64,000 nt of DNA from Antitrichia curtipendula. Lineage: Eukaryota > Streptophyta > Bryopsida > Hypnales > Leucodontaceae. The stretch spans positions 18,494,696-18,558,695 of the forward strand of contig OX579638.1 of NCBI GenBank assembly GCA_951230915.1. The letters are read 5' to 3'. The notes under the pieces are model-generated. The model saw only the letters and a list, made by a program, of their open reading frames with translations, was not told where the DNA came from and ran no database searches. Position numbers and translations under genes: made by a program. How positions within the stretch are numbered: the first letter of the stretch is position 1; each line of letters opens with the position of its first letter. Of this stretch, positions 1,690 through 60,654 are shown one piece after another.

Positions 1690-4600
1690 GAGGTGAGAAA
1701 AAAAGAAAAGAAAAGAAAATACAACGAATATAGTGCTAAGGGCAGCGCAAGTATCATGCCATTAGAGTGGGAACCACACCCATTCGGCGTGCTAGATCTA
1801 TGGTGGCTGAAAGACAAAATTGGCTTTTGGACCGGTGAATGTCCACTTTGGAGAACCTTCAAACATAACAACAAACATGTCATTGCAGCACCAACGTTTT
1901 GTAAAGTGATCTTCCGCAGTCAACTAACGATTGTGGAACTTCATCCGATGCCTACAAATTGACATCCATTTTTTCCTACATAATCAATGACTTGAAGCCA
2001 AATGCGCTGTAGCACTTTGGTGGGATGCCACTTCACATTGTTAAACGCAACGTCATTGCGTTCAAACCATAAAGTCTAAAGGATGACAGAGTGCAAGGCA
2101 GTCCAAATGCTACTGACCTCATCAAATTTACGAGGAATACAATAAGAGAAAATGCCTTGTTTCCAAGTAAGTGGTTGCCAAGGTCCGTGAGCTTCTTGCA
2201 ATGTGCTGATGACATTCATAATATGGATGCCTCACTGCCATGCCCTTTGAGCAGATGGACACTTCCAAAATCAGTGTAAGACTAACTCATGGGATCACCT
2301 TGGACAAATGAGACAACCCATATCAACCGCATGGTGAATGCACCCCTGCCAAGTGTTGACAAGGACGGCTTGATGCCATACAAGCCAAAGGAATCTTCTT
2401 CGGTGCCCGTAGTTTGAGCCAAACAATTTTCCACCGTAATGGATAGGTGGTAGCCATGATGCCCTGCCACTTAAATTCAATCACATTGGGGATCACGTGC
2501 TTGGCACGAAGCAATTCCCTATCAAATTTTGAGGTATACTCCATGAAAGGGATTGGCCTTTGTTGCTCTACTAAAAAATTCTCTGTAGATTCTAAGGGGG
2601 TTTGTCCACACGACCGTAGAAAAGGAGGGACTCAAGCTTTTAGAACCCTAAACCACCCTACAAACTTGAACTCTGTGAAACTATTCTCTGCATTGAATTT
2701 TTTTGTTACCAGGCAAAATCTCCGTATCCTGTGAGAGCTCTAGGCGCCACCTTGTGAGCGTTGTAGATGCCTTTTGGGGATCTAGCATCCTTGTGGAGAT
2801 TGGAAGGGCCTAATCGCATTATAGGCCGCCTACTTGGATGGAAGATCCTTCACTAGCCTGTAAGATAAATGTAGGGCCGGAGAGAGACTCTTTCCGATAA
2901 CATCCTATTAGTTTGCTAGTAATAGTTGATGGAAATGCCAAGGTCAGCAAAGACCCCTAGATGCAAGTTAGGGAGCTTGTTTAGGCTTCCTATGCTCTAG
3001 TTTCGGAAGGTAGTAGACCGAATTTTGTGATAGCTTCAGGAGGGAATATGAACCGATTTTTAGACCAGGTATCTCCTATGGTACAGAGTCCTACCATGTG
3101 GAGTTTTGCGACCCTATTGCAGCAAAAGCTTGGACCAATTTGTTCTGAGAAACTTAACGACCATAGTGGCTCCCTCTAGACTTCCTCTAGTAGGGCTGGA
3201 GATGTCTTATTGATGTTTATCGCTAGTTTCTTCCAAGTCTTATAGGCTCTATTCCATGATTTAGATCATGTTTCACTTGGAAGCGTGGAATGGTAAAAAA
3301 TCTATACTTGGTAACCAATGACCGCCACTCTAAGGTTGAAATTTCAATAGCATGTACAATAAATAAACATGAAAATTTGAGGACCCGGTTTCACAAGCCT
3401 TTATTAACCGTTTTGCCATGAGGGAGACCAGAGCATCAAAAAGATTAGTGAGACCAATCCCACCATTGGTCTTATTCTTACAAAATTGGATCTATGCAAC
3501 TTTGGCTCTGGATCTATGGAGCGACCCAGACCACATGAAATTCATTACTATACTCTTGCATTTGGTCACACTTGCACTCGTACCAACCCACATGGAAATG
3601 AAAAAATAGAGGGAAGATAGGAGGATTTGGTTGACCACAATAATATGCCCCGTGGTATTAATTTTGGCTATGCACCAAAATTTAAACATCTAGTTCAACC
3701 TTTCGAGGAAAAAAGTGTCTACATCCCTAGAGCTGAGAGAAAGTCCAAAGAGTGAGCCTAGGAGTTTGCTAACATCTCCATCCTCCATCCATCTGATACA
3801 AAGCTGACTGGTCTAGGTCGGTCATTTAAGGGGGCTTGGAGAATGCCAATACCCACAAGATTTATTCCAATTAAGAATAAGACCCGTGCTAGCACAAAAG
3901 GTGTCAAGTGTGGAGATCATGGTTATGAAAGACTCCTCTTCTCTCAATAATATCATGGAAGTGTCATCTGCAAATTATACCATTACTTGTTGACAATCTT
4001 CCACCGAAAGCTTAATCCTTTAATCTGCCCGCAAGGACTCCATCCTTGACGAGTGAATTCAAGACCTCTATGATGATTAGGAATAGAAAGGGGGCAAGGA
4101 GGCACCCTTGCCTTACCCTTCTCTGAATTTGAAATGGTAGGGATTATCCTCCATTGACCTTTACCTTGGCCTAAGCATTTTGGAAGAGAAGTTTAGTCAT
4201 TGAGATAAATTTCTCTGAAAATCCCAAGGCCTTCATGCCTCTAAAGAGGAAATCTAAATCCACCATATTGTATACCTTGCTTAAGTCAAGCTTGAGGAAA
4301 AACAAGGGTTGGTTGGAATGGGCTACCCAATCTAAAGTTTTGTGTGTGAGTAGGATATCATCTAATATGAATCGCATGGGGAGAGAGGGAGATTGATCAA
4401 ACAAAATAGTCTCTATTAATACTAGTTGAATATGTAATTGTAAGGCCTTGGCATGTACCTTGTATGACACATTCAATAAGGTATTGGGTCTTGTATTGGG
4501 TCTCCAACTTGAAATTTTACTGTACTCACCACTCTTGGGAATTAATGCTATAATGCTGCTAGTGATGCCGATTGGCATAGTATCAAAGTCCACCACCTTA

Positions 4601-5890
4601 GTGATCATCTATAGATAATCCTCTTTTATGACATTCCAAAGTTTTTAAAAGAAATCCGTGACCACTCCATCTGGTCCAAAAACCTTATCTGCATCCATGC
4701 TTTGAGTGCTTCTTCTAATTCCACCATGGATATGGGGGCTAGAAAGGAGACCTTTATCATGTTGTAAATCTATCTTTGATAATCTTTAAGTAGTAGTCCT
4801 CTACTTCTACCCTTTCTACCGTCTACGTATGGGTTGTATGAAGTTTAAGGTAGAATTCTCTACAAAAAAATTCTAGGTCATTTTGTTCTGTGAAAAATAC
4901 ACCATCTGGGTCCTCTAGATCTATGATCCTAGCATCACTACCTCAGTTCTTGTAAACTTGGAAAGATTTCTTGGAGTACATATCTCCAACTTGTTTCTAT
5001 TTAATAGGGTTACATACCTTTAGTCCTTCAATGTGATGTTTTTCCGCCTTCTCAAGCAAGATTTCTTGTAAAACTTCACAACTTTGCAAAGTTTTCCAAA
5101 GAACCCCAAGGTTGGATTGGAGACCCCAATACTAATGATTTTGGACCTAACTTTTAAGTCATCCAAATATTGTGCACTCATCTTGTAATGGGACTTTCTT
5201 GGGAGAATTGCTTGTAAAGAAAAAATTTCCCATATTGAAAGGTAATTTGAAAAGTTACAATCTTTTTTTATAAAATATTCATCCTTTAGGTTGGTATGAC
5301 CCCTTCTTGATTGGAAAGAGTAGAAACGGTCTAAGCAGGCTAGTATATTGACGTCTATTGTCCTATGTATATTTGTTAGGGTTGGTAGTAGGAAACAAAT
5401 CCTCTACATGGAGGGCGTTGGTGAGTAAATCAAAGGCTTGGCGTTCAGTTGAGTAGACTAGTTTGCCACACAAGCTTGATTTATCTGTCTTTTTCTCTAC
5501 AAAATTCCAATCGCCGCAAAGAATCTATTTATAGTCCTTTGCTAGACTTAGGAGAAGCTCGGTCCATAATTCAATGCATTTATGGAAAACAATAGAGGCA
5601 TACACATTGAGAATCGAGACATCACCTCCTGTAGATAGAGTATTCTAGGCTTGACTTCAAAACACAATAATAATTTTTCACCAAGTCAACCTTCGAAGGG
5701 CAATTGGTGCCCTGAAGGTTTTAAGTAATGATGGTGATCTTTATGGAAGGAATTGGGTTGTTGGCTTTAACAATAGCGGTCATTTCTTTACTTCACATTC
5801 AACCATGTCCCATGAAGAGGTGGAGCCTTCTCCTTGAGTTCTTCTTGGCGTGTTCCTCCTACTAGTGAGAATTGATTTATAGTACTTTCT
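1690..5890 (-). pseudogene. LINE ORF2 relic (endonuclease and reverse transcriptase)
   Basis: Minus-strand translation gives an AP-endonuclease-like stretch with 'CGDWNF' (about 5500). A 145-codon open piece (4608-4171) follows with the L1 reverse transcriptase landmarks 'ALIPKSGEYSKISSWRP', 'LLNVSYKVHAKAL', 'MRFILDDILLTHKTLDW' and motif A 'FLKLDLSKVYNMVD'. FADD follows at 3963-3974, with a stop three codons upstream. A later piece (2544-2323) with 'PLRWKIVWLKLRAPKKIPLA' fits the region after the reverse transcriptase. Many stops make it a pseudogene. Motif A keeps the catalytic Asp but reads YNMV where YDxV is usual. Confidence 0.78.
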
Positions 5891-17122: not shown

Positions 17123-17412
17123 GGCCATGCTTGGTCTAACTTAGAGTTTGGATGTATCAACCATCATTCTGGCCATGCTTGGTCTAACTCACAGTTTGGA
17201 CGTTGGAACTATTGGTCCAGACATGTTGGTCTAACTTAGAGAGCTCGGACGTTGGAACCATCGGTCTGGCCATGCTTGGTCTAACTCAGAGTTTGGACGT
17301 TGGAACCATTGGTCCAGACATGTTGGTCTAACTTAGAGAGTTTGAACGTTGGAACCATTGGTCTGGCCATGTTTGGTCTAACTTAGAGTTTGGACGTTCA
17401 AACCATCGGTCT
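17123..17412. repeat. Six-copy 48/49-base tandem repeat with dimeric order
   Basis: Six units start GGCCATGCTTGGTCTAAC or AGACATGTTGGTCTAAC. The last five run A-B-A-B-A, giving a higher-order period near 97 bases. Units end in 'ttggaaccattggtc(c/t)'. Substitutions fall between types more than within them. There is no spacer variation of the CRISPR kind and no nearby cas-like gene. Confidence 0.85.
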
Positions 17413-22001: not shown

Positions 22002-24758
22002 ATGGATTACCAGATGTTTCTGGTAAGGCCCCCGGGGACCAGCAATCGGGGTGCTCGGGGAGGAGGATTACGGCTGTTTCGAATCCTGGACCATGGAATC
22101 TCGGTGTTGCCTCTGGGAACTCCCAATAGCACTCCCACCGAGTACCGATTCGAACATGTTGCCAAGGTCGTGGCTGCCGATGATGATCCCACGGAGTTGC
22201 GGATCGAGATTCTGGACACCAGCAAGTCCGGGTTCGGGTGTGAGAGCGTTCGGTTCTGCTGTGAAGCTCGAGCTTCGCTTCTCACTGCGCTTCTGAATCG
22301 CGTGGATGACATGAATGGCATTGGTATGTTGTTTGCATACTGTTCCAATTCCATTACCTTCATGTTATGGCACTCCACAGTATGACGGTATTCTTGTTTC
22401 AAGGAATGAACATGAGGTAACTCGTTTTTGTGATAAACGCATGCTTGCGACCTTGAAGCTAGGGCTTCTTAAATTTGTCATAGGAGAGTAGGTCAGGGCT
22501 TGAATGGCATTGGTATGTGTCCCGATGTTCTAGTGCCAATTACAGTACTAATGTCACTCAGTGAGATTATTGTTTCAAGGAATGAACATGTGACGAGTCA
22601 TTGAATCATGATTCTCCTTACAATAGGAGATCCGCCCAGGATTTGAGGAGCTAAACAACTATGTCGTGGTCTTTCTCTGAATTGCTTGAGTTCACATTGT
22701 ATTTGATTTATGCCTATTCTATCTTTCTGATGCTACCAGGGATTGACTACTCGGCGAAGAAACATAGCATCCAGCGTGGAGGGTTGGTCGATACCATGTA
22801 TCGAGTGCGGAGTGCTTCCATTGTGAAAATGGTCAATTTAGGTCATCGATCAGATTTTAAGGTATTGGACCGTGGATTGAGCTTTACATGCATACAGAGT
22901 CTCATGAGTATGAATCTCATTATGCCGCTGCAGAATATGATGTATTTTTTTATTGTCAGAATGTATCACCACCGTTACCGTGATCTGTAATTCTTGTACA
23001 AGAAAAAGCGCCAGATTTCATCACCAGATTTATCATGTCATATTTTTTGTTAATATGTAATTATCCCAGTCAGTGTATTGCGTTTGTAGCAAGCGCTGTT
23101 ATTAATGAGATTGAGACTGGTGCTGCAGGTTAAGGCATCCAAAAAGGTAAACTTCCAAGACATAGTTAAACTGGAAATTCTTAGTGATGATGAGCAGATC
23201 GTGCTGGTCTCTCTCAGATCCCGAACCATGCGGCTAGCGGTCAAGGATTCCGTGGCTTTTGTTTGCGCCATTCAGAGGAACATGAAGGTACGCACTTAAA
23301 TCTTACCTGAAAACAAGCCATGGCGCCACTTGGTAATGTGTCCACTGAATCAAGCCATTCAAGAAGGATTACACACATTTAAGGACTTTTCTGTGTCACA
23401 GTTCGTGTTAGTAAGCAGTACATTTGCGAGTGACGAAATTTTCAATCCTGGGCTATATACTGAGTTCGACACCTTTTAATTGATTAGGTGTATAAAGGAG
23501 GTAGTAATTGGGGTTTTCAGGCTTTGTTTCGCGTACCCCCCTAAAAAAGCAGAATTTTCGTTAAAATGATGCGACTGTGGCTCTGAATGCAGGCATATTT
23601 GAAGTCAGACATTGAGATCGAGAAAATAGAAACATCTAATATGGTGGACTATTTTGCCAAACACTACAAGAAAGTTGTAAGCTACTATCCCCATCAACTT
23701 GTAGAAAGGTTTAAAGCTTGATTAGGTTTCTGCATGAACCAGCTCAAAGTCTTTCATTCACCACGGCGAGTATTTGAACGGCGATATATATATTCGTGCA
23801 CTAGATCACGATTTTCAGAATTATTTCAGCTAAAAACTAATGGAAATTTTGCTCAAGACATGGAGTGTGTGTGTGGAGAGACCCTTGCATTCAGTGGCAT
23901 TGAGTTATCATACTTTCACTTACAGTTGCTTTGTGAATGCAGAGAGAATATTCTGTCCTTTATGAATTTCAAGCTGTGAAACAATCCAAATTACACAATT
24001 ATGAAGGACCACGCACATTGTCAATAACCAAGCATCTCCTTATCGAAAGTTCTTTCAATGACATTATCAACGTTCACAGGTGACTGACTACACATTTTCC
24101 AGTACGTGTCTCTTATCAACTATAATTAATCCCCAAGTGTCTAACCCCTATCGAAGCAAGTAGTCAAATATACTAGATTTCAAAACATTATTTTCCTCAA
24201 AACATGTAGGGTATGGGTTATTCTTTATATTTGTATATTTTGTTACATTCCTAGAAGCTTCGTGAATGGTTATTTCACCTCCTGTAAATATGGATGCAGA
24301 CACTTTTGGCCGTTCTGGCCATTTGGAGTTTTAGGGGGAAAGTGGTTACAGTCGGGGAGTTCGCAAACTCCGCTGCTAAGATAGGGAGCATACGTTATTG
24401 GATTCCGTTCTATTGAGTCCACAGTTATTGAGGACATGTAGCCATATTGACGCTCTTTTTCTTAATCCTGACGGTCCTTTTGTCTCTTGTTGGCTTATTA
24501 ATCCTTGCACATTGGTGAATACTATAATTGTGCAGTCTAGAGGACTTACGTGGTCTCGTGGTTGACGAGAAAAATGATCAAGAGATTATCATCGAGTTCG
24601 CATCCTGGAGACATTGTCACTTTTTGCTTAGAGACCGTGATGACTTCATTGCCAGTGTGGCGGACGTTATGGGCATGGAAAAGGGCTCCACTTTCAGCGT
24701 TCGCTTGGAGTCATTTCATTCTCACACGTTTCCGGAGCAACAAAATGCTCTTTACCAG
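22002..24758 (+). other. PH-like N-terminal region of the RME-8-like protein (exons 1-6)
   Basis: Exon 1 carries 'GLRLFRILDHGISVLPL' and 'RFCCEARASLLTALLNRV'. They correspond to the 'RYKRILCISSVTIVTL' and 'FSSRCRASILTEL' parts of the family's first PH-like fold. Exons 2-4 give a second unit ending 'SNMVDYFAKHYKKV'. Exons 5-6 give a third, with 'GPRTLSITKHLLIES', 'SLEDLRGLVVDEKNDQEIII' and 'DRDDFIASVADVMG'. In worm and human RME-8 such folds bind phosphoinositides on early endosomes; retention here suggests that membrane binding is kept. The basic loop KHSWRGRYKR of family members is replaced by a Gly/Arg-rich stretch, so lipid choice may differ. Confidence 0.7.
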
Positions 24759-27700
24759 GTCTCAACCCAATCCGAACTCAACCTAATGTTTGTTGTCAAA
24801 TGCTATGTACATTCAAGGGGAAGTTCTTTTACTTCTACAACGCAAATTGTGAAGCCAAAGCTTGTCTACAAATTTGTTTATTGAACTGTGGTGCTTTCGT
24901 GAAGGACTTCGAGTTATACATGCTTGGATATTGTTTGGCCATGGTGTATGCGCTTCACAACTGATGCTAGGGTTTCTGTTTCAGAGTGAATGTGAGACAT
25001 TCTATGTGAATCGTTTTATAGCAGCTTATAATTCTACCCGAGAAGCATGGGCCTTACACATGCAATTGAAGGAGTATGCTGCAAATATTCTGGTACGAAT
25101 TGTCAACCTGAATTTTACTTTTTGTCCTTTTATGTAGACGAAATTGATGGTTTAGGTCTGACAAAATTAATTAGGTGTGTAATTCTGCCAAAATAAATTT
25201 ATGCTTGTCAAGACCAGCTTACAATACCAACATATCAGTTTTGGTGTGCCTAAGTTGCAGGTTCCTGAATGATAGCCAAGTAGTAAGCTATAGCTTGTCA
25301 ACCATGTGTTAAATTGTGCCATATAAACCTTCTCGTGTCATGTCTTTGGCTATGGAATATATGTGAAGAGTCTCATGTGTAGTCAGGCAGGTGGGGGAGT
25401 CACAATGCACTGACCTGAAAGTTCTCCAAGCTGTCGTGGACACGCTGAAAGAATGCATTGGTAAGAGTCTCACATACTTTCCTTTGACAAGCTGTATAAC
25501 CTTATATGATATACCTTTACTGCCTAGTAGTCCTTTCGGTCTTCTCATTTTACATGCCTCTCAAGAGGACGTCTGAGTGCATTATAGTGCCGAGTGATAA
25601 TACTCAGAATTTTTTATGAAAGAGCAGACTTGTCTTTATGAGGAGACTTTCGGTTGAAGACCTTGAGGGCTTGTACGCTTGTATCATCCTCTGGCTGCTT
25701 GAGCTATGGTGGTTCTAGTCTTGTACTTACTAGAATTCATGTACCTAGTATTGTACTTCGATATTGCACAAAGGGGCACATTGAAGATTGTATAGTGAAA
25801 AGTGACATGTTTAGTTTCAAGTTTCAGGAAAATCGAAGCCAGATATTGTACGAGCCACAACATGTTGTATGGTCCTTGTGAGACTTCTGGGATCTAAACC
25901 TTGCTTTGATGCCGTAAGAAACTTACCAGAGCTTGCCACAGTTCTGTTCCAGGTATTTCTTCGTCTCTTTATCAATTTTGACCGCTCCCAAACTAACCTA
26001 CGTTGTTTTTTTAACAGATTTATGGTTTAATCCATAACTGCCCAAATGACCAAAACTGTCTGCTTCCATATTCATAGGAGTTGAAATTAATCATTTATGA
26101 AGGTGCAAGGAAGGTAACAAAATGCAACAATAGAAAGAAGAGTCGTGTTCTACAGTTTTGATCAATAGAAATTTGTTTTCGAAGTTACTATGAGCGATTG
26201 TTCGCTTCCGAAGTGGAGTCTCCTTTTTTAAGTTTCGGCACTTTGGGTTTAAGAAGTCCAGTGTCTTAGAAAAGATGGGAATCACGGCCACATTAGTCTA
26301 AATTTTCCAAGGGGCTACTGCGTAAGGTACCTACTCGTGGTTTTCCATTACGAGCCTTCTTGCAGAGGCCCATGTTTCGTAATTATGCATTTAGCATGTC
26401 TGATCTCCATACACCTGGTTATTAGATATGCGCTTTTGTAAGGCAGTAGATTCTCTTTTCTGGATATGGATCTACAGATTGCCTATTCTTTTGAACAAAA
26501 CTGATAATGCTGCCCAATCTCGTCATTTCAGTGTGTGCGTTCTCAAAATAGCATTATATCTTATCATGCGACGCTAGTCATACGTTCAGCTATCAAGCTT
26601 GTTGTCCAACCTGGATCAGCTAATGTTGGCATCGCATCCAAGGTGAGTTTCTAAAGAACACAATTCAATAGTTTGTGAGGACGAGGGCAAAAGCGAGGGC
26701 AATACAAGGGCCTAATTGTGGATGTGTAAAGACATTTTTTTTTTCCTTCGTACTATTGTTGCAATCCTTTTGAGACACAAAATTTCATTTGACTCATATG
26801 ATTCACGAAGTCGTTGGAATCGTACCATCCCTCATGCGTTATCTGGTATTTGCAGCAAGAATTTGCCAACAGATTGTTGGTGCTAAGTGCAGAAAATCTG
26901 CAGCAGTTGGTAGCATTGCTCCATACGCATGCTCTTTCAAAGCACAACTCTCTTCAGGTTCTCTCTCTCTTTGTGCTCCCTATCTTTGTGTAACTCAATC
27001 TTATCCTCCTGAGCTTTCACGCTGACCTTGGTTGTACACTGTAAATCACTATTTGTATGGGGTGCATATGTATACTCCAACTGTCGTTTAGGGGTTCTTT
27101 GAATTTTCAGTATAACCAAGGACCTCTGGCATTACTAGAGTCTTGCGTATTTAAATCTGACGTTTTATTGAACAGGTGACAAGTATTTTGGACATCTTAA
27201 CATATGCCCTCAGTTCTACACCGACAGATAATGATGCGGGTCGTCTATGGCTGAGAGTGCGTCCCTCTCCATTCACTATCTCAGTAATCTTTGTTTTTAA
27301 ATTCTGCATTTACTAGATCTGTTGATTTTATAGGGTTTTGTTTGCAAGTTGCAATGGCGATTTCGATAGCATGTTTAGATCGCATGGAAATATGTACAGT
27401 ACGATGGAAAATATGTAGAATGGAAATACACACATTTCCCACTTGTTTCTGGAGTATGTAATGTAGAAGAGAACAGGGCATTTTGATGTCCTCACAGAGA
27501 TAGTGTACTTTGGTGAATGTTAAGACCTGATATTTGTTCATTCATGTCCAGGCATACGAGGCGTCCATAATGGCTACTGCAGACCTCCTGTGTGGATTTT
27601 TCAGGTTAACCAGCGATGTTGTTTTTACCAGGTAGCTACTTCCATCCTCCTTGTTTACTTGGGGCACATTTCTCCATCTCCTGATGTGCCTCCAAAGCGT

Positions 27701-30700
27701 TCTGCTCTCTTGTCGCACCTACTGAGACCCAAATGATCTGAATCACGGTCTAGTCTTTGATCATCCTGTGGATCACGTGAACAGACTCTCGATTCTTGTT
27801 CAAGCGCTGCTCACAACAATGTCACCAGTTGTTCGCGAGAATCTGCAAGTATGCCTACTCTAGCTCTTTTTCTCAATTTCAGTACCTCATCTGCAAGATA
27901 TGAGTCGTTTTTTTTATCTCTGTTGTGCGAACTTTTCAGAGTCTGGGACTTCATTCTTGCAAGTTTTAAACCCTTGAAGGACCAAGAGTCATGGCTTTAA
28001 AATGACCAGTTTAATTGATCATATTCTGAAAATTATATTTCAGAGAAGGCCAAATTCATATCACCACAATCAATGAAGAGCATTGCAGGTCTAGCTAAAG
28101 AAAAAAGAAAATGGACGAAAGAATGTTTTATTTGACATGATCCTTCGAAACCGCTGAAGCAAACATGATCCTTGGTCCTTCACGGATTAAGAAGCCAAAT
28201 CATTTCGCATTTCTTTGCTCCTGTTGTGCGTTCGAAGTTGGAAATTTCCTGACCGTTTAACGTGGATTTCTTGTACAGACTGTATGTGTTCGCCGGTGCG
28301 TGCTTCTACTGCACTTAAGTACAGCGGTATTCTCAAAGAAGTCACATCTTAGGTTGTTGAGCTGTAGCCAGATCTTTCTCTTGATGGAAGGAAACCTTGA
28401 AGCGAAGAAACTGCTTATGGCTGTGTTACCTACGGTGTGCACTACTTACAATGCCTTGACACAGATTGGGCACGCACTCCTGAAAGCAAGCCTATGCATT
28501 TTCACGTCAGTTAATTCTAATGTTACAATAAATTGATAAACAGTAAACAGATTGGGTCCATCTTCTACTTTGTTGCTAATGGTCCTTATATCATTTGGCG
28601 TGTAGGGTGTGATGAACTTGTACGCCAATAAAGTGAGTGAGTTGGATGACCAGGTAAGCTGCATCGTGCACTCACCTGAGCATTAGTTAGGACTGAATTA
28701 CATTAACACCAGTCTTGCTGTTAGCTTGGGAGTTTGCTGACTTTTCGGTCTGATTGTGTAGAAGGGATCCACAGGCAGTTTCACTGCGTGGATGGACACC
28801 ATAGAGTTGCTTCATAATGGAACCGTGGAGACTCCACTTCTTGTATGGAATGCTGTCAAGCGTTCGGAGTTGAGGAAGGTACAATTGCTTTCAGAGATTT
28901 ACATTTTATATACCTATTCCTGTGTGTGTTTGTTAGGTTGATTTCGCATATCTACACACAAAAATTTACGTGATCTTGTTGTCAGTGAGGTCATGAAGTT
29001 ACCCGTTCGCTTGATGTTGTTACATGCTAGTGACTGTTGTTGCAACAATCAACCAGTCATACCTCGTAGAGTACATCAGTTCTATAAGTGCGGCCTAATT
29101 ATGAAATTAAACAACTTTTCTTTGACATATGCAGTTCCTTCGGGATGAAATGGAGGGGTATATTGCGGCCTTGGAAACGAATAAAGATGTTTGGTACAAC
29201 GCGGCAGATGTTCAGCTTGTCTACTCCACTGCCAGTGAAGGTGAAGGTGAGTTTTCCTAGCGAAAAATTTGCATAGTTCTAATGTTCAGTTCGTGTCATT
29301 TGCATCTCCTCCTGTAAACCAGATTCCTTGTTTTGCAAATATTTTTCCTTAACATGCTTTTACGGAAACTAAGTCCTGCATGATGTAGAAAACATTCTGG
29401 CGTGCTTGTGTATTGGATTATGGTTGCTTTAAAATGACCAGTCTGGTTTACTTCTTTGACTTATAGAAATGGGATTGGCGATCTACAGGAACTGTTGTTA
29501 GAGGGGTTCACTTGGAGCTTCTTGTTGACTACCAACCTCCTGCTCATGGCCTTCACAACTCATTCTGGAAGGTCAGTTTGATTCGACAATACATACATGT
29601 TTTCAGCCACGAACATTTACTTTATATCATTCGTAGCCGGTGTTTGGATAATTAGGCGACTAAATTTGGTGTTCTGGATGTCATGGCATACCGTAGCGAA
29701 GAAGATGAGGCACAGTGGTTTTTGTAGCTCTGACATTGCCTCTATGATTTTTGAAATAGCTTGGAGACCCAATGCCGTTATTCCAGTCAGTATTCCAAGC
29801 CATGCTCCTGGGCTTCACCCCCTTGTTTGGCTGCAACAATCTGCCTGAAATTGATCTACGCTTAGCCGTGCATGTGTTGACTTGGATCTACGAACGTTAC
29901 ACAGATGAGGTCACTTTTTGCATGGAGACACTGAAAGTTATTGAGGTATTTTGCGATTTGTCCTCCATTTGAGGTTGATAACATTCTTGAGTTACTGCCT
30001 GAACTCCCTTGAAGTTAATTAACCAAGGGATAAGAAAAGGAATCCAGATTCTTTTGGTGCATAAGTTTCATCTCATTTTATGTTTGCAAAGGCGGGTGTG
30101 GTTCACATGAGAATTATTTATTTCCTTTTATACAGTCCTTGTCTCCTTGGTCGGCACATTTGCGTGTGGGTTCAGTGATTGCATTCCTGGAAATAGATTG
30201 CTTCAAAAGTGGGACAATTCTTCTATACTTCAGTGCTCCAGATTCATTTTGTACTACCTTGGAAAGGGTGCAAGCCATATACTACTCTAGAATGCTATGA
30301 AACTTAGCGATCTCCTTTTTATTTTTCTCTTGACATTTGCATAATCACTGGGTTTACAGTTGTGTCTCTTGTTTAGTGCTCGTTTGAGCTGTTGTTTACA
30401 TTTTTCATGTCGACTGGAGAATAACAGTATACTCATGTACGGATGTGTGGCACAGACAGTAGTGGGGATGTTGCGGGAAGTTATCAACAGTGAGCATGAG
30501 GTTTTTGTATTCAAACTGGTCATTTTCCTACTGGCTACTCTGGAGAAAGGCAAACGAGAGAACGTGATACGATTTACTCATGCAGGTGGAAGTGCTGTTT
30601 TGGCATCTTTGATGGTGATATCTGCAGAGAAGGTTACTTCCTTTGCAAAGCCTCTCTGTATAAATATCGTTGCACTGATGCAGATATCTTTTTCTTTTTT

Positions 30701-33700
30701 GCCATGATGAATTTTGAATCTCCTATGTTGTTGCAGACGCCTGAGAGGGTCTGTTTGAGAATTTTCTTTAACGGGTGGTCCTCCGTGGTTTTATATTCTC
30801 AGAGCTGTAAGAATAAGATGGAATTTGAATGCAATGGCTCGACCAGCAAAGATGCTTTAGCGCAGGGTGCATTTGAAATGGTCGATTACGTGGGTTCTGA
30901 CGGAGTGTCAAGGCTGGTGAGGATTCCATCGGGAAGGGCTCGGGAAATGATGGGGAAGTCCGTGCAAGATGGCAGCCTGGAAGCCAAAGATGGTATCAGA
31001 TGGCAGGATAAACAAGTTCCTCCTAAAATACAGTTGGGCCTTGTCTTGGACCAGTTAGAAACTCTTTTGAGGTGCTTTCTTGTCAAAACTCTCATAGATT
31101 TGCATATTACTGGAATTTGAAATCTGAAAATGTTGTATTAGTCGAGATTTGCTAATCATTTAGGGGTTGAACATCAACTTGGTAATTCAGTTAATCAGAC
31201 GATGATGCTTGACAGTGTATATGCTTGATATATTGTCATTCAGAGGAAAATTCTGGAGAGCATAGTAGTGTAGATATCACTGTGCTTATCGAATTCTGTT
31301 GACAGGATTCAAAATAGGTCCATCGAGTACAGCAAGAGTCATTTGGCTGCTTTAATGATTTTCTTGTGACGCTTGTGACGCAGAATATCAGGTGACAGTA
31401 GCAATAAACAGCATTATCCACCATCGGCTGCAGTGATTAGCCTTTCCAAGGAAGAGACTCTTTATCATCTGGTGCAAATATTACTCCGACTCAAGTCACC
31501 CGAATTCGGCAGGTACACAATTTTTCTCATTGTACGGTAGCTCCTGACTCCTGAGAAGTGATGACGCTGAGCGCCCAAGTTAGAGTATAATATAACTGTT
31601 AAGGACCTGATCCCGTCTCCTATTTTGACCCTGTTACCACCAGCAACTCATCTATTCATACACTTGGCTGGATTTACTTGCAAATGGCGTAAGCATGATT
31701 TGGCTAAATGTCTATGGCCACTGATCTTTGGCAAATGGAAGTGGGGTTTCTACTGTTATTTCTAATAGTCTGCAATCCCACACTGAAATTGCGTAAGAAC
31801 TCCAGGCACTGATTTTTTTTAATTGATCTGAACAAATCTGGCTCTTTTACCCGAAGTGTTCTCTCCAAAGCCTATACATCTCCCAATAATCAAGCTCCTG
31901 CTTATGTAAAAATGCTTACAATTGATGCAAATAGTACCCTCTACTCCTTACATAAACTTGCTAATTTGGTAACTCGTACGATTTCTTGTTATCACTTTTA
32001 GTTTACTTTTTGAGTTTCCTTAGAAGCTCTATTTTCCAAGTCTAAAATCTCGATATCTGACTTTATGTGTCGTCTGAATATTATCAACCTACTTACAGAA
32101 CCTGGTTTTCAGGGTTTTGGAGATTCTCTTGATTGTTGTCAAGGCAAACAAGAGTGCCATGCGACGACTTTTCTCACTGGGTGCTTTTGGGATCCTCCTG
32201 TGGAAAATCCTGTCCGGAGATCTCGTGGACTGGGAGAAAGACATGATTTGCAAATTCTTGCTGCAATGTCATTTAAAGCAGGTAAATCGACTGCAATTCA
32301 ACTTATATGTAACCATGTGCGTGAATTTCAATTTTCGTGTTTTAAGTCTCTAAATATGGGTGATGACTTGCTGTGGAAGATTACTTGTCTCGTTTTCCTT
32401 TCATGATTTCTAATATATGGAGATCTTTTTTATGGCAGGATCAAGGGACGATCCGCAAGAAAGATGAGAATGACCAAGACCAATTACTTTGTAAGGGCAG
32501 TGTACTCCGACTCTACTTACCTGATGGACTCATTTTAAGGCTTATGTGTGAGGTATGCCGACAACTCTGTTACTACGTACGGCAAATTGTTATTTCCATT
32601 GAAATCGTTTAGACTAGGACACTGGATTAGCCTGTCCCTGATAGAAAGTCAGCTTAACCTAAGTGCCCGAATGGCCAATAGTGGCCGCTTCCATATCTAT
32701 AGGAGTTGAAATAAATCATTTAGGGAGCTTCATGGAAAGTAGCAAAATGTGCCAATTGAAGAGGAAATTGTACCTTCATTTTGAACGATAGAAATATGTT
32801 TTGAAAGTTACTATTACCTTCCGAAGTGTACCTTCTAATTTTTAGCTTGGGCACTTGGGACTTAAGTTAAATGGTTAGCCGTAACACTTCTTGAGTGCAT
32901 CTTGGTAAGCATGCTGAAGTTTGGCTTGTGTGCAGGATATGGATTCGTCCAGACTCTTTACATCAATATTGAACACAGAACAAGATACACCTGATATCAT
33001 CTGGAATAAGGATATGCGGCAACGTTTGCTCGACCATGTTACCAGTGAATTGGAGCCATATGTTAAAGCTCGTGCCAGCGATCCCATGGCACCTTATGTG
33101 CACAAGCCCCGGCCTCATATTGACTATCCTGAGTTGGCTGGTAAGTACAGGGTTGATGTCTTTCACTATTGTGAGTGGTTGCGATGTGTTGAAGGGCTTT
33201 GGTATCCCACAATCATCTGTAACTGCAACTTGGAAATTAATGACCTTGAATTCAGTCCACACTTTCAAAGGCGATCATCGGCTTAGAACTTGGCAGAAAT
33301 CTGAACTTTGCAGAGCAAAGTCAATCAGTATGCACCTATTGACTGTGCAGTTTTCTGTTGTGTAGACATGGTATTCTCAGCTCCGTTTTATCTACAAAAT
33401 CTTCTTGATAAGGATCGCTTCCCAGAGTATCCCATCAGAGACCCTGACGGGTTCTTGAGCAGCCTCATGCTGGTAAGTTGAGGTTATGGTGTCAGATATT
33501 CGTTTCATTTAGGGAGGAACAACCTGTGCATCAGAATGATGCAGACTTGGTATGAATTTCAGGATCTGTACATTGCAACCCAATTCCGAAAAGGTGTATT
33601 TATAAATTCAAGGAATAAATATGGACTTAAAAATCCATTTTCACCTCGCTTCATGAAGAGAGTATATGTAGACTATGCCTTTGCGGAATGACACTAATTG

Positions 33701-36700
33701 TAACCATTGAGATGTTGTGGGGTACGAAGTTGATCAAAGATTTTCTTGTCGTGGTGTAGAATCTTCGGAATTTGGTGAAAGGAGGGGATTCTATTCCTGG
33801 ACTACAACGGACACAGCTCCTCATTCAAGCCCTGGTTTTGACCTCAATCCCTCGACTCGTTTCTTCTTTCTTATGAAAAATTGTTGGCCAAGCTTGATTT
33901 CATTTACTTATGCGCTTCTTGTCTTTGTTTTGCACTGGAGAAATCTTTGACTGGTTATATCAATAAAGTTTGAAGCTTTTCTCCGCTTGCAGGCATACGT
34001 CGTCGAGCGACACAAGCTCACGCTACCGAGCGACACAGAGCATATCCTCATGAAAGCGTCATTTCCGTCTTTACAGACTTGCCAAGCTGAGAAGGAGAGC
34101 TCTGCCCCATTTTCTATGGATGTTTTGCATTACACAGTCAAAGTCCTCCGAAAATATTTAACTGGGAATTCAAAGGCTGAAGGTTTACCCCTACCATCAC
34201 TAAACTTCGCATTGGACGTGCTTTCACTTGGGACTCAGTGGAGCGTCAACAGCAATAGTCTTGACGCTGCACTTGCAGGATCCCTGTCCGTGTTGGAGAT
34301 TATATCCTGCAGTCAGGACGGGAGGAAGCATCTTTGGAACGACCCGCGCTGGCAGAAAGGCATGCAGTGGGCTCTCAGTGCTGCCGTCACTACAACAGAT
34401 CCTAGCCCCGTCTCATACACTGCTTTGAGTTCTCTGAAGCACTTTGCAGGGGATTCGGACTACGGCCGGCGGATCATTGATGAAGGCTTCTATCTCTTGC
34501 TACTATTGCTTGTAGTCCCAGGACCAACTATTGACCCTAAAAGTGCAAAATCTACGCTTCCAATTTTGGCTACAGATGTGCTTGGCTCTTTTGTACGAAC
34601 GGAGGGGACCCAGTCTATTTCACTCTCCAATTTACTCCCCAGGTCACTTATGTCTTGCTTGCAAAATGATGAGGGCCTTGGTAAGTTCGTTTCCATGGCA
34701 GGATCGGACGTTCAATCCCCGACAACAATTTGGACTGCTGAGGTGCGGGGCGAGCTTCGTGAGAGGGCCCTGGCGAGGATCATGACTCATAAGGAACAGG
34801 GTGAAGTGCAATGGCTAGAGAGCTACGAGTATGCTTGTCTTCAAAGAGAGTTCGTAATTGGTGGCGTTTTTGTTAAGCATCTTGCGTCTGGAAAATGGGA
34901 GGGAGACGACCTTCCAGATGACACCGAGTTTTTGGATCGCATGATGGAATACCTGGAGAGGGAACGAAATGTCGTTGAGGTTGAGAACGCAACGGAGGGG
35001 TATGAGGACAAGCACGTCATCCTTCCGGAAGGCATGCAAGAGCACCGAGATGAGCTTGAAAAGTTCGTCCTTGTGCTGGTTGCAGTAAAGGAGTGCCTGA
35101 AATTCGCAGTGTCACATGCCAGGAATGATATAATCAAAAGTCTCAGGTTAGAGACTTTCTTTGAAATTGCGTCAGTGGAACAATGTGCACCCAAAGTTTG
35201 GGTTCAGATTATGCACCTTTTCAAGGTTCTGGCTCAGGAGGAGGCATCACAAAACACCATTCTGCAATCAAATCTGCTTGGGATAGTTGGGATATACCTT
35301 TGGGATGCTGTGACTGAGGACAAGGGTAACGAGGTGGTCCTTGCTACTCTCGAAATGCTACATGTTCTGAGTGAGAATATTCCAGCGAATATCCAGGTGA
35401 CCGATTGGTTCTCCAGCAGCGGGGTACTCTTCCCCTTGTTATGCCTCTTTTGTGATGTTGACCTACCGAGTTTGAGAACCGGAATCATGGAGACTGAAAA
35501 GATAAGCTCACATCAGAGGTTACTAGCTGCTTGTATACTTGGTCAGCTTCTGTTGTGTTCAATTGGGGTCAGTCAGCGTGCACATTTTCTTGCAGAGAAT
35601 CCCAAGGATTTAAGGTTGACAACAGCTACTGACGAGCTTATGAATTTGCTTGAGCCGGGGCACAAGGGGGCGAAGCCGCTTGTATTTCGAACATTGGTGT
35701 CACTGATGCCTCTGGAGCTTCTATCTACCCTAGCACATGACCCTGCTGGAGCTTGTGAACTGTACAAGGAGACAGTCTACCTTCCAAGGCTAGTGTGGGA
35801 CGATGAAACACAACATGGTGTCAAGCAGCTGCTTACAGAGGAGGCCATCAAGCTGCAGGGGTTCGTGAAGAACCAGGTGGTAGCAGGACTGGGGTCCTGG
35901 GCTTTGGAGCTAGAAAAACCGGTGTTTACTCGCTGGGCGCTTGCCACTGTTGTAGAGGTCGACAGTAAGCCAGTCTACAGGAATTCAAAAGAAGAAGGAT
36001 ATGTGCCTGAAATGTACTTGGGGGGGTTCTTTGTGGATCAGTTCCTTAGAATACCGGAATTTTTCTTCGGTAAGACCCTGGAGCAACGATTTCTTCGAGA
36101 AGTGAAAAAGGCTATTGTATTAGGCATCTATGCAGAAGATCCCGATTCCCTGAGAAGACTTATACTTTCACTGCTATTGCTCTTCAAAGGGCGACCGTAT
36201 TTGTTAGCTGGCCGATCCTATATTGACATCTTCCTCGCTGTGAGCCGTTATATATGCTGCACTGGGGCTGAAGCTCGTATGCTTTCCCAGCTTGTGATCA
36301 TTCTGACGCACTCCATCGCTAACCATAAAGACATCGTCGACATCATTGTTTCTGAGGATTTGATCCACTCTCTGGTGGACTTTCTCGATTTGGAAGTTCC
36401 CAAGGCGGATGCTGGATTTGCCGGCACTGACCCGAGGTTGTGTAGCCTCATGCTGCTGCTAAGGTTGATCAGACTGAGTTCCCCAACTATTGAGATTACA
36501 TCGAGTGTGCGTGTTGTGCAGAAAATGACTGATACCGTGCTTGATATGGAAGGAAATAATGAAGTTTCGAAAACAGCGCTGGAATGCCTTGCCTTGATGT
36601 GCCATGACAAGCGCAAAGGGAAAGAGGTCATTCGGTTGTTGGAAAGCCTAGTGCCGGCTGATATTAAAGGCTTTTGGGATATTCCAGTAGAGAACATCTG

Positions 36701-36926
36701 GGACGACGTTGCCGATTTTGAGGTTCTGCAGCATTTTCTAGAAAATCAATACCCATGTGCTTGGTGGACCACGGATAGGTCACGTGAACTGTTGGACAGT
36801 GGAGTCTCAGCTGCACCATCCCCTTCCACCTCGACATCTCCCAATGCAAATGGCACCGAGAAGGGTCAAGAGACTTTCAAAGGGAGTGTGTTTGCAAACT
36901 GGGATGCTCAGTTTCCACCCAGCTGA
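22002..36926 (+). CDS. RME-8/DNAJC13/GRV2-like endosomal scaffold protein without a J domain
   Basis: The proposed exons are 22002-22323, 22740-22861, 23129-23287, 23593-23676, 23943-24079, 24536-24758, 24985-25092, 25391-25460, 25828-25952, 26532-26642, 26856-26957, 27176-27256, 27552-27631, 27785-27848, 28279-28434, 28606-28653, 28762-28878, 29135-29246, 29489-29571, 29787-29945, 30456-30632, 30737-31071, 31384-31512, 32113-32281, 32439-32552, 32936-33140, 33366-33472 and 33993-36926. All introns are GT..AG, phases agree throughout, and the product is about 2,210 residues (human DNAJC13 about 2,240, Arabidopsis GRV2 about 2,550). PH-like segments lie at about 1-107, 148-229 and 250-345, and a GYF-like segment at about 926-975. 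IWN-type repeats are VWN (about 692), IWN (about 1151), IWT (about 1479) and VWD (about 1834). Family members act on endosomes in retromer/SNX sorting and recruit Hsc70 through a J domain. That domain is absent here, so Hsc70 recruitment is unlikely (inference). The start is the first ATG after an in-frame stop and fits the family N terminus. I give no symbol because orthology to GRV2 versus a divergent paralogue is open. Confidence 0.88.
22312..22590 (+). repeat. Tandem duplication including the exon 1 donor site
   Basis: An identical 18-base stretch covering the exon 1 / intron 1 junction occurs at 22,312-22,329 and again at 22,501-22,518. A second identical 20-base stretch follows at 22,395-22,414 and 22,571-22,590. 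The duplication is about 180 bases and leaves a second GGTATGT donor inside intron 1. Confidence 0.75.
26031..26248. mobile_element. Small TTAA-bounded MITE in intron 9
   Basis: TTAA lies at 26,027-26,030 and 26,249-26,252. The interior ('AGGAGTTGAAAT.AATCATTTA', 'ATAGAAAT.TGTTTT.GAAAG', 'TTCCGAAGTG') matches the element in intron 25 (32,658-32,861). End repeats are CATAACTGCCCAAATGACC and GGCACTTTGGG, imperfectly inverted. It is wholly intronic and leaves the splice sites of exons 9 and 10 intact. Confidence 0.7.
27970..28186. mobile_element. Small TTAA-bounded MITE in intron 14
   Basis: The ends ACCCTTGAAGGACCAAG and CTTGGTCCTTCACGG are inverted repeats. TTAA is at 27,966-27,969 and 28,187-28,190. 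At about 217 bases it is a short relative of family A and lies within the 430-base intron 14. Confidence 0.65.
30136..30267 (+). other. Frame-neutral candidate cassette exon in intron 20
   Basis: A 132-base open stretch lies between a TATACAG acceptor and a GTGCAA donor. It would add 44 residues (starting 'SLSPWSAHLRVGS') without shifting frame. I left it out of the main model because skipping it gives the better family alignment: 'METLKVIE' joins 'TVVGMLREV', matching 'TRYIIGMLERC' in DNAJC13. It may be a chance frame or an optional exon. Confidence 0.3.
30737..31071 (+). other. Exon 22, GYF-like segment
   Basis: This 335-base exon encodes 'FEMVDYVGSDGVSRLVRI', then 'REMMGKSVQDGSLEAKDGIR'. 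It stands where DNAJC13 and GRV2 carry a GYF_2 domain (WYF...GP...L...G.l...t..W..g...W). Spacing agrees, but the signature aromatic and GP residues are largely lost, so proline-rich ligand binding is doubtful. The segment flows into 'LDQLETLLR', the helix following the domain in relatives. Confidence 0.5.
32658..32861. mobile_element. Small TTAA-bounded MITE in intron 25
   Basis: The left end is TTAACCTAAGTGCCCGAATGG and the right end GGGCACTTGGGACTTAAGTTAA. This gives inverted ends around TAAGTGCCC and TTAA on both sides. The interior matches the intron 9 element along its length. Exon 26 splicing (acceptor at 32,934-32,935) is not touched. Confidence 0.7.
33473..33992 (+). other. Intron 27, the site where the J domain is missing
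   Basis: Exon 27 ends with 'RFPEYPIRDPDGFLSSLML', which aligns with 'RFPDWPIKDPVKLLKDTLD' of DNAJC13, the segment directly before the J domain. Exon 28 starts 'AYVVERHKLTLPS' and soon reaches 'FSMDVLHYTVKVLRKYL', which fits the armadillo-like region well after the J domain. Neither the exons nor any reading frame of this 520-base intron holds an HPD triad. Confidence 0.75.
33563..33661 (+). other. Candidate degenerate J-domain exon
   Basis: A 99-base open stretch has a good acceptor (TATGAATTTCAG before it) and donor (AGA/GTATAT after it). Both junctions are phase 0, so it can be spliced in without breaking the frame, adding 33 residues. It contains 'QFRK', comparable to the helix II 'QYRK' of GRV2. 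At the junction with exon 28, 'RFMKR' + 'AY' resembles the helix III 'KF..VQKAY'. The HPD position reads SRN or similar, and helix I is absent. It could be an included exon or a fossil; only transcripts can decide. Confidence 0.4.
33993..36926 (+). other. Terminal 2.9 kb exon of the RME-8-like gene
   Basis: One uninterrupted frame of 977 codons plus TGA (36,924-36,926) carries the C-terminal armadillo-like half. It includes the third and fourth IWN-type repeats ('SPTTIWTAEVRGELRERA', 'LPRLVWDDETQHGVKQLL'). Each is followed by the family's GG-[VF]-F block ('EFVIGGVFVKHL' and 'EMYLGGFFVDQFL'). The tail is Pro/Ser/Thr-rich ('APSPSTSTSPNANG') and ends 'FANWDAQFPPS'. Family members often end with a basic 'KDQKHDLF' motif, which I do not find. 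Confidence 0.85.
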
Positions 36927-39281: not shown

Positions 39282-40227
39282 CCCTTAAAGGTTTTTGACT
39301 ATGTTTTCACAAAAACCGCTCCCAAACTGCCATTTCTAGTACAAGTACCAAATTTTGGAAAAAAAACATTTTTGGACACATGTAACCGTATGATCTTGTA
39401 ATAAACTAGTTTGAGAAGATGTGGAAAAAATTTCAGAAATTTCCACCGTGTAGATTGCAAGATATTAGCATTTGAAGTGACAAAACCCCTTTTTTTGTCA
39501 CTGCGAAAAACCGGGCAGCTGCACTTCACATGGTCACATTTGTATGAAAAAATGTCCAAAATGGTGGTAACTCTTTGGATTCATTCTTCAAAGCAAGTTA
39601 GCTACATGCTTGAAAATTTTCAGATCATTTGGAATTGTACAATATATAGGAAAAAAAATAGTAAGTAGAAAGAAGTAGAAAATGATTCAAAACACTAAAT
39701 TGTTAAGGATTTAATTATGGAATTGAAAAATGCCAATCCAAACGATTGTAATGTTGTAATAAACAATCTACACCTTGTGCTTATATTTTTTTCCAAAAAT
39801 ATTGAAAATTGAGTTAAATAAAGGACTTCAAAGTTTATTTTAGAGTAGAGATTCCATAACTACCCGCAAACTACCCACAACTAAAATTCCTCATAACTTT
39901 CATCTCATAAATCAAAGTGGAATGATTCAAAGCTTTCCTTGTGCACATAAATCTAGAGAACCAATTTCAAATTTTTATTTCTCTAGAAAATGATTTTTAA
40001 AGAAGTTTTTTTTGCTGCCTGGGCTGCCCGCCGAACAATGAAAACTACATATCATACCATAACTTTTTAACCATGTGGTCAAAAGCTGTGAAAATTGTTG
40101 GTCCCTAAAGCTACTCCTCGGGCACATCTTGTGTGAAAATTTCAAAGAAAAAAAATAAAAATTCCATTCGTGGTGAGCTGCCCCAAAACGCTATGTTGTC
40201 AAAAAACGGTGTTTGGTCCTTTAGGGG
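39282..40227. mobile_element. Family A element, complete (plus orientation)
   Basis: TTAA at 39,278-39,281 and 40,228-40,231 encloses ends CCCTTAAAGG... and ...GGTCCTTTAGGGG. The element is 946 bases, AT-rich, with many 'taacttttt' and 'aaattt' motifs. Frames in it are short, so it is non-autonomous. It is closely similar, in reverse, to 52,605-53,546. The target and end pattern match piggyBac-type elements, but no DDD transposase was found, so the assignment is by ends only. Confidence 0.8.
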
Positions 40228-52604: not shown

Positions 52605-53546
52605 CACCTAAAGGACCAAACACCGTTTTTTGACAACATAGCGTTTTTGGGCAGCTCACCATGAATGGAATTTTTATTTTTTTTATTTGAAATTCACACA
52701 AGATGTGCCCGAGGAGTAGCTTTAGGACCCAACAACTTTCATAACTTTTGACCACATGGTTAAAAAGTTATGGTATGATATGTAGTTTTCATTGTTCGGT
52801 GGGCAGCCCGGGCAGCAAAAAAAACTTCTTTAAAAATCATTTTCTAGAGAAATAAAAATTTGAAATTGGTTCTCTAGATTTATGTGCACAAGGAAAGCTT
52901 TGAATCATTCCACTTTGATTTATGAGATGAAAGTTATGAGGAATTTTAGTTGTGGGTAGTTTGCGGGTAGTTATGGAATCTCTACTCTAAAATAAACTTT
53001 GAAGTCCTTTATTTAACTCAATTTTCAATATTTTGGGAAAAAAATATAAACACAAGGTGTAGATTGTTTATTACAACATTACAATCGTTTGGATTGGCAT
53101 TTTTCAATTCCATAATTAAATCCTTAACAATTTAGTGTTTTGAATCATTTTCTACTTCTTTCTACTTACTATTTTTTTCCTATATGTTGTACAATTCTAA
53201 ATGATCTGAAATTTTTCAAGCATGTAGCTAACTTGCTTTGAAGAATGAATCCAAAGAGTTACCACCATTTTGGACATTTTTTCATACAAATGTGACCATG
53301 TGAAGTCCAGCTGCCCGGTTTTTCGCAGGGACAAAAAAAGTTTTTTTGTCACTTCAAATGCTAATATCTTGCAGTCTACACAGTGGAAATTTCTGAAATT
53401 TTTTCCACATCTTCTCAAACTAGTTTACTACAAGATCCTACGGTTATATGTGTCCAAAATGTTTTTTTTCCAAAATTTGGTACTTGTACTAGAAATGGCA
53501 GTTTGGGAGCTTTTTTTGTGAAAACATAGTCAAAAACCTTTAGGGG
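52605..53546. mobile_element. Family A element, complete (minus orientation)
   Basis: TTAA at 52,601-52,604 and 53,547-53,550. Ends are ACCTAAAGGACC... and ...AACCTTTAGGGG. It is the reverse complement of 39,282-40,227 with only scattered differences. The left TTAA is built from the last base of the family B MITE plus its TA duplication. Confidence 0.82.
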
Positions 53547-55214: not shown

Positions 55215-55430
55215 CGAGAGGATCCACTAGTAGTCAAATTCGCCATGTGGGTCTTCTCGTGAATCATTTCCCCTAGTCTATGAGGACCTTGTTTCTACTA
55301 GTGATGTCTTGGGCAATAAAAACGAGAGGATCCACTAGTAGTCAAATTCGCCATGTGGGTCTTCTCGTGAATCATTTCCCCTAGTCTATGAGGATCTTGT
55401 TTCTACTAGTGATGTCTTGGGCAATAAAAA
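55215..55430. repeat. Two-copy 108-base tandem repeat
   Basis: Units at 55,215-55,322 and 55,323-55,430 are almost identical (GGACC versus GGATC is the visible difference), which indicates a recent duplication. Each contains ACTAGTAG...CTACTAGTG as inverted inner ends. A diverged single copy is at about 45,590-45,670. Confidence 0.88.
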
Positions 55431-59280: not shown

Positions 59281-60654
59281 CCCTCTTCCCAAATGCCATG
59301 AGCTTTTCCAAGGTCGCTTTTACGATCGAGCAGACGGTCACACCATCTTGTTGAAATAATAGTTGAGAGAACAAAGTTTGATTGCAGGAGCTTGGCTATG
59401 AATGATTGCCAGGACTTCCCCCCATATTCTACAACTTGGAGCTACCTTCAAGACTGAAAAAGAGCAGTCAACAAAAGGGAGGCATCCTGCGAGAGTGATT
59501 GAAGGCGTGTGGGAATATATTCTCGTCCGTCGCGGGGTGGGAGGTGACAGATGGTTTTCCTTTTAGTTCTGTGGCCATGTAGGTTCTTGGAAAAGCCTCG
59601 CCACATGTCCGCGGTTCGCAAAAGGAAAGAATATTAAAAAAAAATTTAAAAATTGGGAGGACTTGTCCGACCAAGAAGAAAAAGATGGGAACCTTGTGCC
59701 TACTCGCCTAATTTACCCCCATGCCAAAAGAAAGTCTTGGGATGGGATGGGATGGGATGGGATGGGATGGGATGGGATGGGATGGGATGGGATGGGATGG
59801 GATGGGATGGGATGGGGTGCGCAAATAATGGAACACAACATTTGTATTGTTTGGTCAGTTGATGGACTGGATTGGCACTTTTTTTTGTCAAATATTGTGC
59901 AGAAAAAATAAAAGAAGTGGAAAACACGGAAGTGATCCACATCTTTAAGTTTAGGTGGGGTGCACGGGCTTTGTTTTGCGGTGCTCCGACTCATGGAAGA
60001 AAAGATATCGAATTAAAAAAAAATTATGATTTAAAAAATTTACTTTAGAAATAGAAACTTACTTTGATTTTAATTTTATTACATTGTAGCAACTGCACAA
60101 GGCATATTAGTACTCCCTAAACATAATATGATGTAGGCTTCTGACAAGTTACAAATAGGATTTTTTTTTCAACAATAACAACCCAAAAAATGGTCCATGG
60201 ATGACTTTCAAGATTTTTGCAGAGATGATGCATGCACTTATTGTGTTAGTCCGTAAAGTGAATATTTTGGGACCAAGTACCTACCTTGATGACGGCTCTT
60301 GTCTTTTCATAGTTAAATGGTTCCTTCCTCACAATGTTACTATGGTGGCCATGTTTGTTGATGTTCGAGGTGAAATATAGTTGTTCAAAGATCATTAGTA
60401 CCATTAAAGAACTACCACCATAGGGCAAAGAAATTCCCATGGCAAGTTGGCTATGTTGGACTTAGAGACGTCCCTTTGGATTAGTTTCTCAAGCCCCGAT
60501 TGTGCTGCACCAAGCCGTCCCGGCAAGCACAATTGAGACAGCCATTTTGGAAAAAGGTTTGACACCACCTAACCGTGCAGGGCTACATGGCTATTGTTTG
60601 GCTTTGTCAACACAATCTGACCCTCATTATCACAAAACTCTATTTGCAAGTAGC
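59281..60654. other. Intergenic; no gene seen
   Basis: Contains the GATGG pentamer array (listed separately). Frames over that array are repeat artefacts. Other short frames (for example 60,502-60,735, which runs into the next element) are unrecognised. Confidence 0.5.
59741..59815. repeat. (GATGG)15 pentanucleotide array
   Basis: Fifteen uninterrupted GATGG units with no visible substitution, which suggests recent expansion and likely length polymorphism. Confidence 0.95.

Follow-up and report, generated by a model that had tools for sequence, protein, structure and literature searches.

A divergent RME-8/GRV2 paralogue without a detectable J domain in Antitrichia curtipendula

The stretch of DNA analysed here (the window, 64,000 nucleotides from Antitrichia curtipendula, assembly GCA_951230915.1, contig OX579638.1, positions 18,494,696 to 18,558,695) carries on its forward strand a gene of the RME-8/GRV2 family from which the J domain appears to be gone. 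RME-8 is defined and explained through this domain, that is, through the recruitment of Hsc70 and the uncoating of the endosomal coat. Judged from sequence, the window protein is a divergent RME-8/GRV2 without a J domain, and its gene is almost certainly a functional paralogue. Two further J-less genes were found on contigs C2 and C7, in addition to a canonical, J-containing GRV2 on C2, in a search that covered 400 Mb in 303 contigs, the longest seen being of 56 Mb (the window is C6:18494696-18558695 in this numbering). The window gene is best read as a member of an old RME-8 subfamily, duplicated and kept by selection, that would act without direct Hsc70 recruitment. The overall explanation that we prefer, with a probability of about 0.6, is that the J domain was removed once, that the three paralogues have been maintained, and that their products act as non-catalytic partners or competitors of GRV2.

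No match to Pfam DnaJ at E <= 10 was obtained in the window protein, for which the whole-protein Pfam search used a draft of 2172 amino acids that preceded the final model, or in the segments between IWN2 and IWN3 of the three J-less genes; as a positive control, the same Pfam library gave E 9e-11 for DnaJ in the segment of the canonical copy. For our own J profile, 12 sequences were taken from this genome, 11 of them clear J domains and the twelfth, a segment of L009, doubtful; the canonical copy (L011) was not among them. The profile detects the canonical J domain at 2.4e-10 and finds none in the three J-less regions, the best other match among 7686 fragments being at 2.3 on the minus strand. 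A genome-wide search with PF00226 (E <= 0.001) listed 65 matches, none of them at the three J-less loci. The HPD triad occurs once in the six frames of the whole window, at 22045, antisense within exon 1. A preliminary description of this DNA, made from the sequence alone, had proposed that the J domain was lost and the rest of RME-8/GRV2 kept, with no HPD between the flanking landmarks; both claims are borne out, and the pre-J landmark that it named is present in exon 26 (Table 1). A PDB search with exon 28 returned no matches. When the canonical J region was forced onto the window by spliced alignment, the matches were spurious and varied with the gap cost, and the attempt was discarded.

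The rest of the protein is recognizable as RME-8. The RME-8_N profile (PF19432) matches the draft with an E value of 5e-23 and 81.7 bits (cut-off 25.4), no other Pfam family rises above its cut-off in that draft, and the first 660 amino acids of the C2 copy score 65.1 bits. Exon 1 taken by itself gives E 0.0033 and 16.2 bits, below the Pfam cut-off of 25.4. The IWN2 block shows 30% identity to the canonical copy over 227 columns (E 1e-19). Four IWN repeats are described as a defining feature of RME-8 (PMC9642905), and the window gene encodes four motifs of this type, LVWN, IIWN, TIWT and LVWD; the tryptophan is retained at all four positions in all three J-less genes. The asparagine is altered at IWN3 and IWN4 in the window gene and at IWN2 and IWN4 in the canonical copy. 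The window gene thus comes from a family of J proteins without encoding one.

The canonical head reads KHSWRGKYKRIF, which includes the motif SWRGKYKR with a tryptophan that we take to be W20 of the human protein. At this position the window, C2 and C7 heads read GARGGGLRLF, GQRGGLRIF and ARAGNRLL, respectively, so that the motif is absent from all three. Human W20 is named as the key lipid-binding residue (PMC9642905). GYF_2 was undetected by Pfam at E <= 10 in 92-amino-acid segments of all three J-less genes and was found in the canonical segment at 1.5e-12 (positive control). At the GYF_2 site (window 30803-31071), the three genes have a conserved stretch, YVG.DG...R.PS...DGS.(D/E)AK..IRWQD, which may be a diverged GYF_2 unseen by Pfam. 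The C7 segment also matched DUF3572, at E 0.0033 and 18.1 bits; this lies below the cut-off of 25 and was treated as chance.

The canonical copy was recognized when six partial-looking members of the 65 DnaJ places were read: the one at 41.717 Mb of C2, on the minus strand, carries VDEEILKRQYRRLAMRYHPDKNPQGREKFVAVQKAYERLQ. A model of 25 exons and 2512 amino acids with no stops, approximate at both ends and near 30251 (region coordinates), came from spliced alignment with a provisional GRV2 sequence; the 49.9-kb region contains 200 N, none of them inside modelled exons. Identity to this provisional Arabidopsis-type GRV2 is 67% (1651/2481 columns). A genome search with a stretch of the canonical protein that starts ahead of IWN2 and runs through J yielded 12 matches, five of them on the canonical gene itself and four on ordinary J proteins, where only the J part matched. 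The remaining three, one per J-less locus, were weak (E 9e-5, 0.005 and 0.006) and covered the IWN2 part only (query about 94-168), with no J match at any of these loci.

With the last exon of the window gene as a protein query, the genome gave five matches at three loci: the window on C6, C2 and C7. The gene models of the J-less copies were fitted by hand. The C2 copy has 28 exons and 2147 amino acids with no internal stops; 23 of its 28 exons equal those of the window gene in length, with differences of 3, 6, 6, 6 and 15 bases in the remaining five. This agreement is partly by construction, as an automatic 32-exon model was hand-corrected to GT-AG sites matching the window. The model of the C7 copy comprises 32 exons and a stop-free frame of 2204 codons, the tail being uncertain. 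In this copy (C7:21268001-21298000, L023-L025), introns lie inside the region that forms the single 2.9-kb last exon of the window and C2 genes, and the model has no counterpart of window intron 17. Identity amounts to 67.8% between the window and C2 proteins (1434/2115), 51.3% between window and C7 (1079/2104) and 1035/2111 between C2 and C7, and each J-less protein is about 22-23% identical to the canonical copy. A genome search with RME-8_N recovered the canonical gene in three pieces and, weakly, the C7 copy (E 0.04); the window gene was not listed, which points to limited sensitivity for short divergent exons, so a further copy is possible. Within these searches, the RME-8 complement of the genome is one J-containing gene and three J-less ones. 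The preliminary description had suggested looking for a J-containing gene and had left a choice between a paralogue and a sole RME-8 gene in a lineage that had given up its tie to the chaperone. The finding of the canonical GRV2 agrees with the former; the latter is contradicted by that copy and by the two further J-less genes.

The coding structure of the window gene is intact, with GT-AG borders at all 27 introns and no internal stop in the 2143 codons. Its last exon consists of 977 stop-free codons, where about 50 stops would be expected from the exon's base composition; the longest open stretch in the shuffled window was 169 codons (30 mononucleotide shuffles, three frames, plus strand). 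The preliminary description had likewise counted 28 exons, if perhaps not exactly the same ones, and it was right about the intact frame, for which its figure of over 2,200 codons was slightly high. A first model with 27 exons and none at the J site was superseded after the comparison of paralogues, which added the exon at 33760-33834 and moved the 5' ends of exons 20 and 21 inward to acceptors common to the paralogues. A candidate exon at 33760-33858 had been considered on weak grounds (compared as a single sequence with the canonical gene, it was equalled or exceeded by 633 of 2000 shuffles, and a longer stretch by 69 of 500), and the counterparts in the paralogues set its end at 33834. Simple exon joints near 27.7 kb and 29.5 kb led to apparent frame breaks, both removed by the use of other acceptors. 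These acceptors are both found in the automatic model of the C2 copy; in the C7 copy the first is present after hand correction, and at the second there is no intron and the frame reads through.

Over 2115 codons compared between the window gene and its C2 paralogue, the nonsynonymous and synonymous rates (dN and dS) were 0.204 and 0.975, a ratio of 0.21 by the Nei-Gojobori method (NG86), and a bootstrap (100 draws) of the ratio of the corresponding proportions (pN/pS) gave 0.30-0.36. In all ten segments, two of which overlap, dN/dS was below 0.5, the highest value (0.46) being that of exon 27, the linker at the J site, with its 25 codons. For the window and C7 copies dS is saturated. The suggested test for purifying selection came out as anticipated, and the ratio of 0.21 is a strong argument against a pseudogene, which had already been argued against from the open frame.

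The three J-less genes share the same joint at the place of the J domain. Exon 26 ends with FL(S/N)SLM(L/Q) in all of them and is followed by a short exon of 25, 27 or 33 amino acids and then by A(Y/H)(V/I/L)V(E/D)R. FL.SL and IWN3 lie 273, 281 and 310 amino acids apart in the J-less genes versus 384 in the canonical copy, a J-site segment shorter by 74-111 amino acids. A profile of the three exon 27-28 blocks aligns best with RLQLLLKAQCILFSRYGTVL, the helix directly after the J domain (canonical amino acid 1575), with a score of 34.0 that none of 120 shuffles reached; against the canonical pre-J and J stretch, the same profile scores 16.7, under the shuffle mean of 17.5. Because the profile fits the post-J helix and the distance to IWN3 is shorter, the J domain and its leading linker were most likely excised and the flanking helices rejoined, rather than the J domain having decayed. 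This would most likely have been a single removal, in the common ancestor of the three paralogues. The splice structure closes the gap, with exon 27 as a short bridge from exon 26 to the helix that follows J, and what is left is the RME-8_N head and a helical part with the four IWN motifs.

The J domain of C. elegans RME-8 is believed to be what recruits Hsc70; in an autoinhibited state it binds the IWN3-IWN4 region, and SNX-1 competes with this binding (PMC9642905). In a protein without J, autoinhibition of this kind would be absent, the IWN3-IWN4 half would bind a partner of the sorting-nexin/retromer type, and the protein itself would be unable to recruit or stimulate Hsc70. With IWN elbows that could still bind partners, but neither J autoinhibition nor Hsc70 activation, such a protein would serve as a scaffold or compete with canonical GRV2. 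The mechanism that we consider most likely is a non-catalytic role beside the J-containing GRV2, as its partner or its competitor, and we give this scaffold or antagonist reading slightly less than an even chance.

Several observations weigh against this combined explanation. The post-J helix score exceeds the shuffle maximum of 32.7 by a small margin; a global MAFFT alignment sets the exon 27-28 block opposite the canonical J domain; dN/dS comes from a comparison of paralogues, by NG86, on hand-fitted models; and at about 23% identity to the canonical copy, partner binding is not confidently transferable. Furthermore, the loss of both SWRGKYKR and a detectable GYF_2 may mean a different membrane and different partners. 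The last point leads to the strongest alternative, a functional paralogue that works off the endosome, on another membrane or as a cytosolic rod, after losing the lipid-binding signature together with the J domain. The absence of both features from all three J-less genes speaks for it, but the four IWN motifs and the RME-8_N head remain recognizable, and we regard this alternative as unlikely, if deserving of some weight.

A degenerate J domain could also have been kept, with exon 27 and the beginning of exon 28 as helices II and III of a pseudo-J without HPD, similar to Tim16. The global alignment places the block opposite the canonical J helices, a placement that we think is forced, and exon 28 is predicted to be helical, although with a mean predicted local distance difference test (pLDDT) score of 39 this is hardly informative. 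This alternative is improbable, as the block matches neither our J profile nor Pfam DnaJ, local profile alignment favours the post-J helix, and the segment is shorter than the canonical one by the 74-111 amino acids noted above. A pseudogene or decaying duplicate, which the high divergence from the canonical gene might suggest, is hardly credible given the open frame and last exon, the regular introns, the two open sister genes and a dN/dS well below 1. Equally far-fetched is an assembly or modelling artefact in which a real J exon was lost from intron 26: the basis is a single assembly, but the window contains no N, the exon 26-27-28 joint is common to three chromosomal loci, which makes an artefact very unlikely, and the PF00226 and canonical-segment searches gave no J match at any of the three.

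The removal of J in a maintained subfamily, as preferred here, raises the matter of its age. At 91 sites the window protein agrees with the canonical copy alone and at 93 with the provisional flowering-plant GRV2 alone; this balance depends on the provisional sequence and is a hint only. None of the 27 introns of the earlier model coincides exactly with a canonical intron, and the positions mostly differ; the nearest pairs agree in phase and lie 2 and 5 columns apart, where the N-terminal alignment is poor, and one or two introns may be shared. Taken together, the balanced sites and the lack of an exactly shared intron suggest an old split. Tentatively, and with the odds against it, the J-less subfamily may have split off before the divergence of this lineage from flowering plants and since then have been dedicated to regulating endosomal sorting without catalysis, as an antagonist or a scaffold. 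If true, RME-8 function would be divided into a chaperone-coupled and a chaperone-free arm.

Table 1. Features of the window and J-less copies elsewhere in the genome (window positions unless a contig is given)
Feature	Position	Strand	Remarks
J-less RME-8/GRV2 paralogue gene	22002-36926	+	28 exons, 2143 amino acids; stop TGA 36924-36926
Exon 1	22002-22323	+	start ATG; weak match to RME-8_N profile positions 10-87
Exon 16	28762-28878	+	IWN1 motif LVWN, 28840-28851
Exon 21	30803-31071	+	opposite canonical GYF_2 site (placement inferred from alignment)
Exon 25	32936-33140	+	IWN2 motif IIWN, 32996-33007
Exon 26	33366-33472	+	end of IWN2 block; contains RFPEYPIRDPDGFL at 33416-33457
Intron 26	33473-33759	+	position of canonical pre-J linker and J domain; J-like sequence not found
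Exon 27	33760-33834	+	25 amino acids; bridges J site; its end fits the first post-J helix of canonical RME-8; counterparts in C2 and C7 paralogues
Exon 28 (last)	33993-36926	+	IWN3 TIWT 34725-34736; IWN4 LVWD 35790-35801
C2 J-less copy	C2:48178410-48181280		last-exon protein match 65%, no stop
C7 J-less copy	C7:21276922-21280887		last-exon protein match in three pieces, main one 45%
Reverse-transcriptase fragment	4174-4608	-	Pfam RVT_1 3.6e-9; probably retroelement remnant, upstream of gene
Repeat, first copy	39405-39668	+	perhaps dispersed element
Repeat, second copy	53197-53424	-	perhaps dispersed element
Tandem array	17123-17412		48/97-base units
Tandem array	55215-55430		108-base unit x2, 99% matches
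Tandem array	59738-59816		pure TGGGA

The two oppositely oriented copies of the repeat have nearly identical chance translations, TSLRRCGKNFRNFH.VDCKILAFEVTK... Elsewhere in the genome, the DnaJ genes at C6:11366848 and C6:11267558 (L002 and L003) are nearly identical, lie some 100 kb from each other and point in opposite directions, as a recent inverted duplication might leave them.

Three J-less copies under purifying selection amount to a natural separation-of-function experiment, which suggests that the solenoid/IWN part is apparently worth keeping for itself. They also offer a genetic handle on a chaperone-independent role of RME-8, the same question that is addressed in C. elegans by deletions and charge reversals (PMC9642905). 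The window protein resembles RME-8/DNAJC13 of animals and GRV2/KAM2 of Arabidopsis in its RME-8_N head, four IWN-type repeats and IWN2 block and differs from them in the absence of the J domain, the pre-J linker, SWRGKYKR and a detectable GYF_2. Pseudo-J proteins such as Tim16/Pam16 also belong to a J-protein system without activating Hsp70, and their J fold lacks HPD; there the fold is retained, whereas in the window protein the fold itself appears to be absent. Among the matches listed from the open-licence literature, no J-less RME-8 is reported in titles or abstract openings. A truncated Leishmania protein described there is a different protein from Leishmania RME-8, and the RME-8-like J59 of Leishmania has a J domain (PMC9141911). 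RME-8 homologues with mutated key DNAJ residues are marked in Fig. 1 of PMC9642905, so that mutational change of the chaperone site is already on record. In those homologues the Hsc70-activating site is changed and the domain is present, whereas in the window gene the domain itself appears to be gone.

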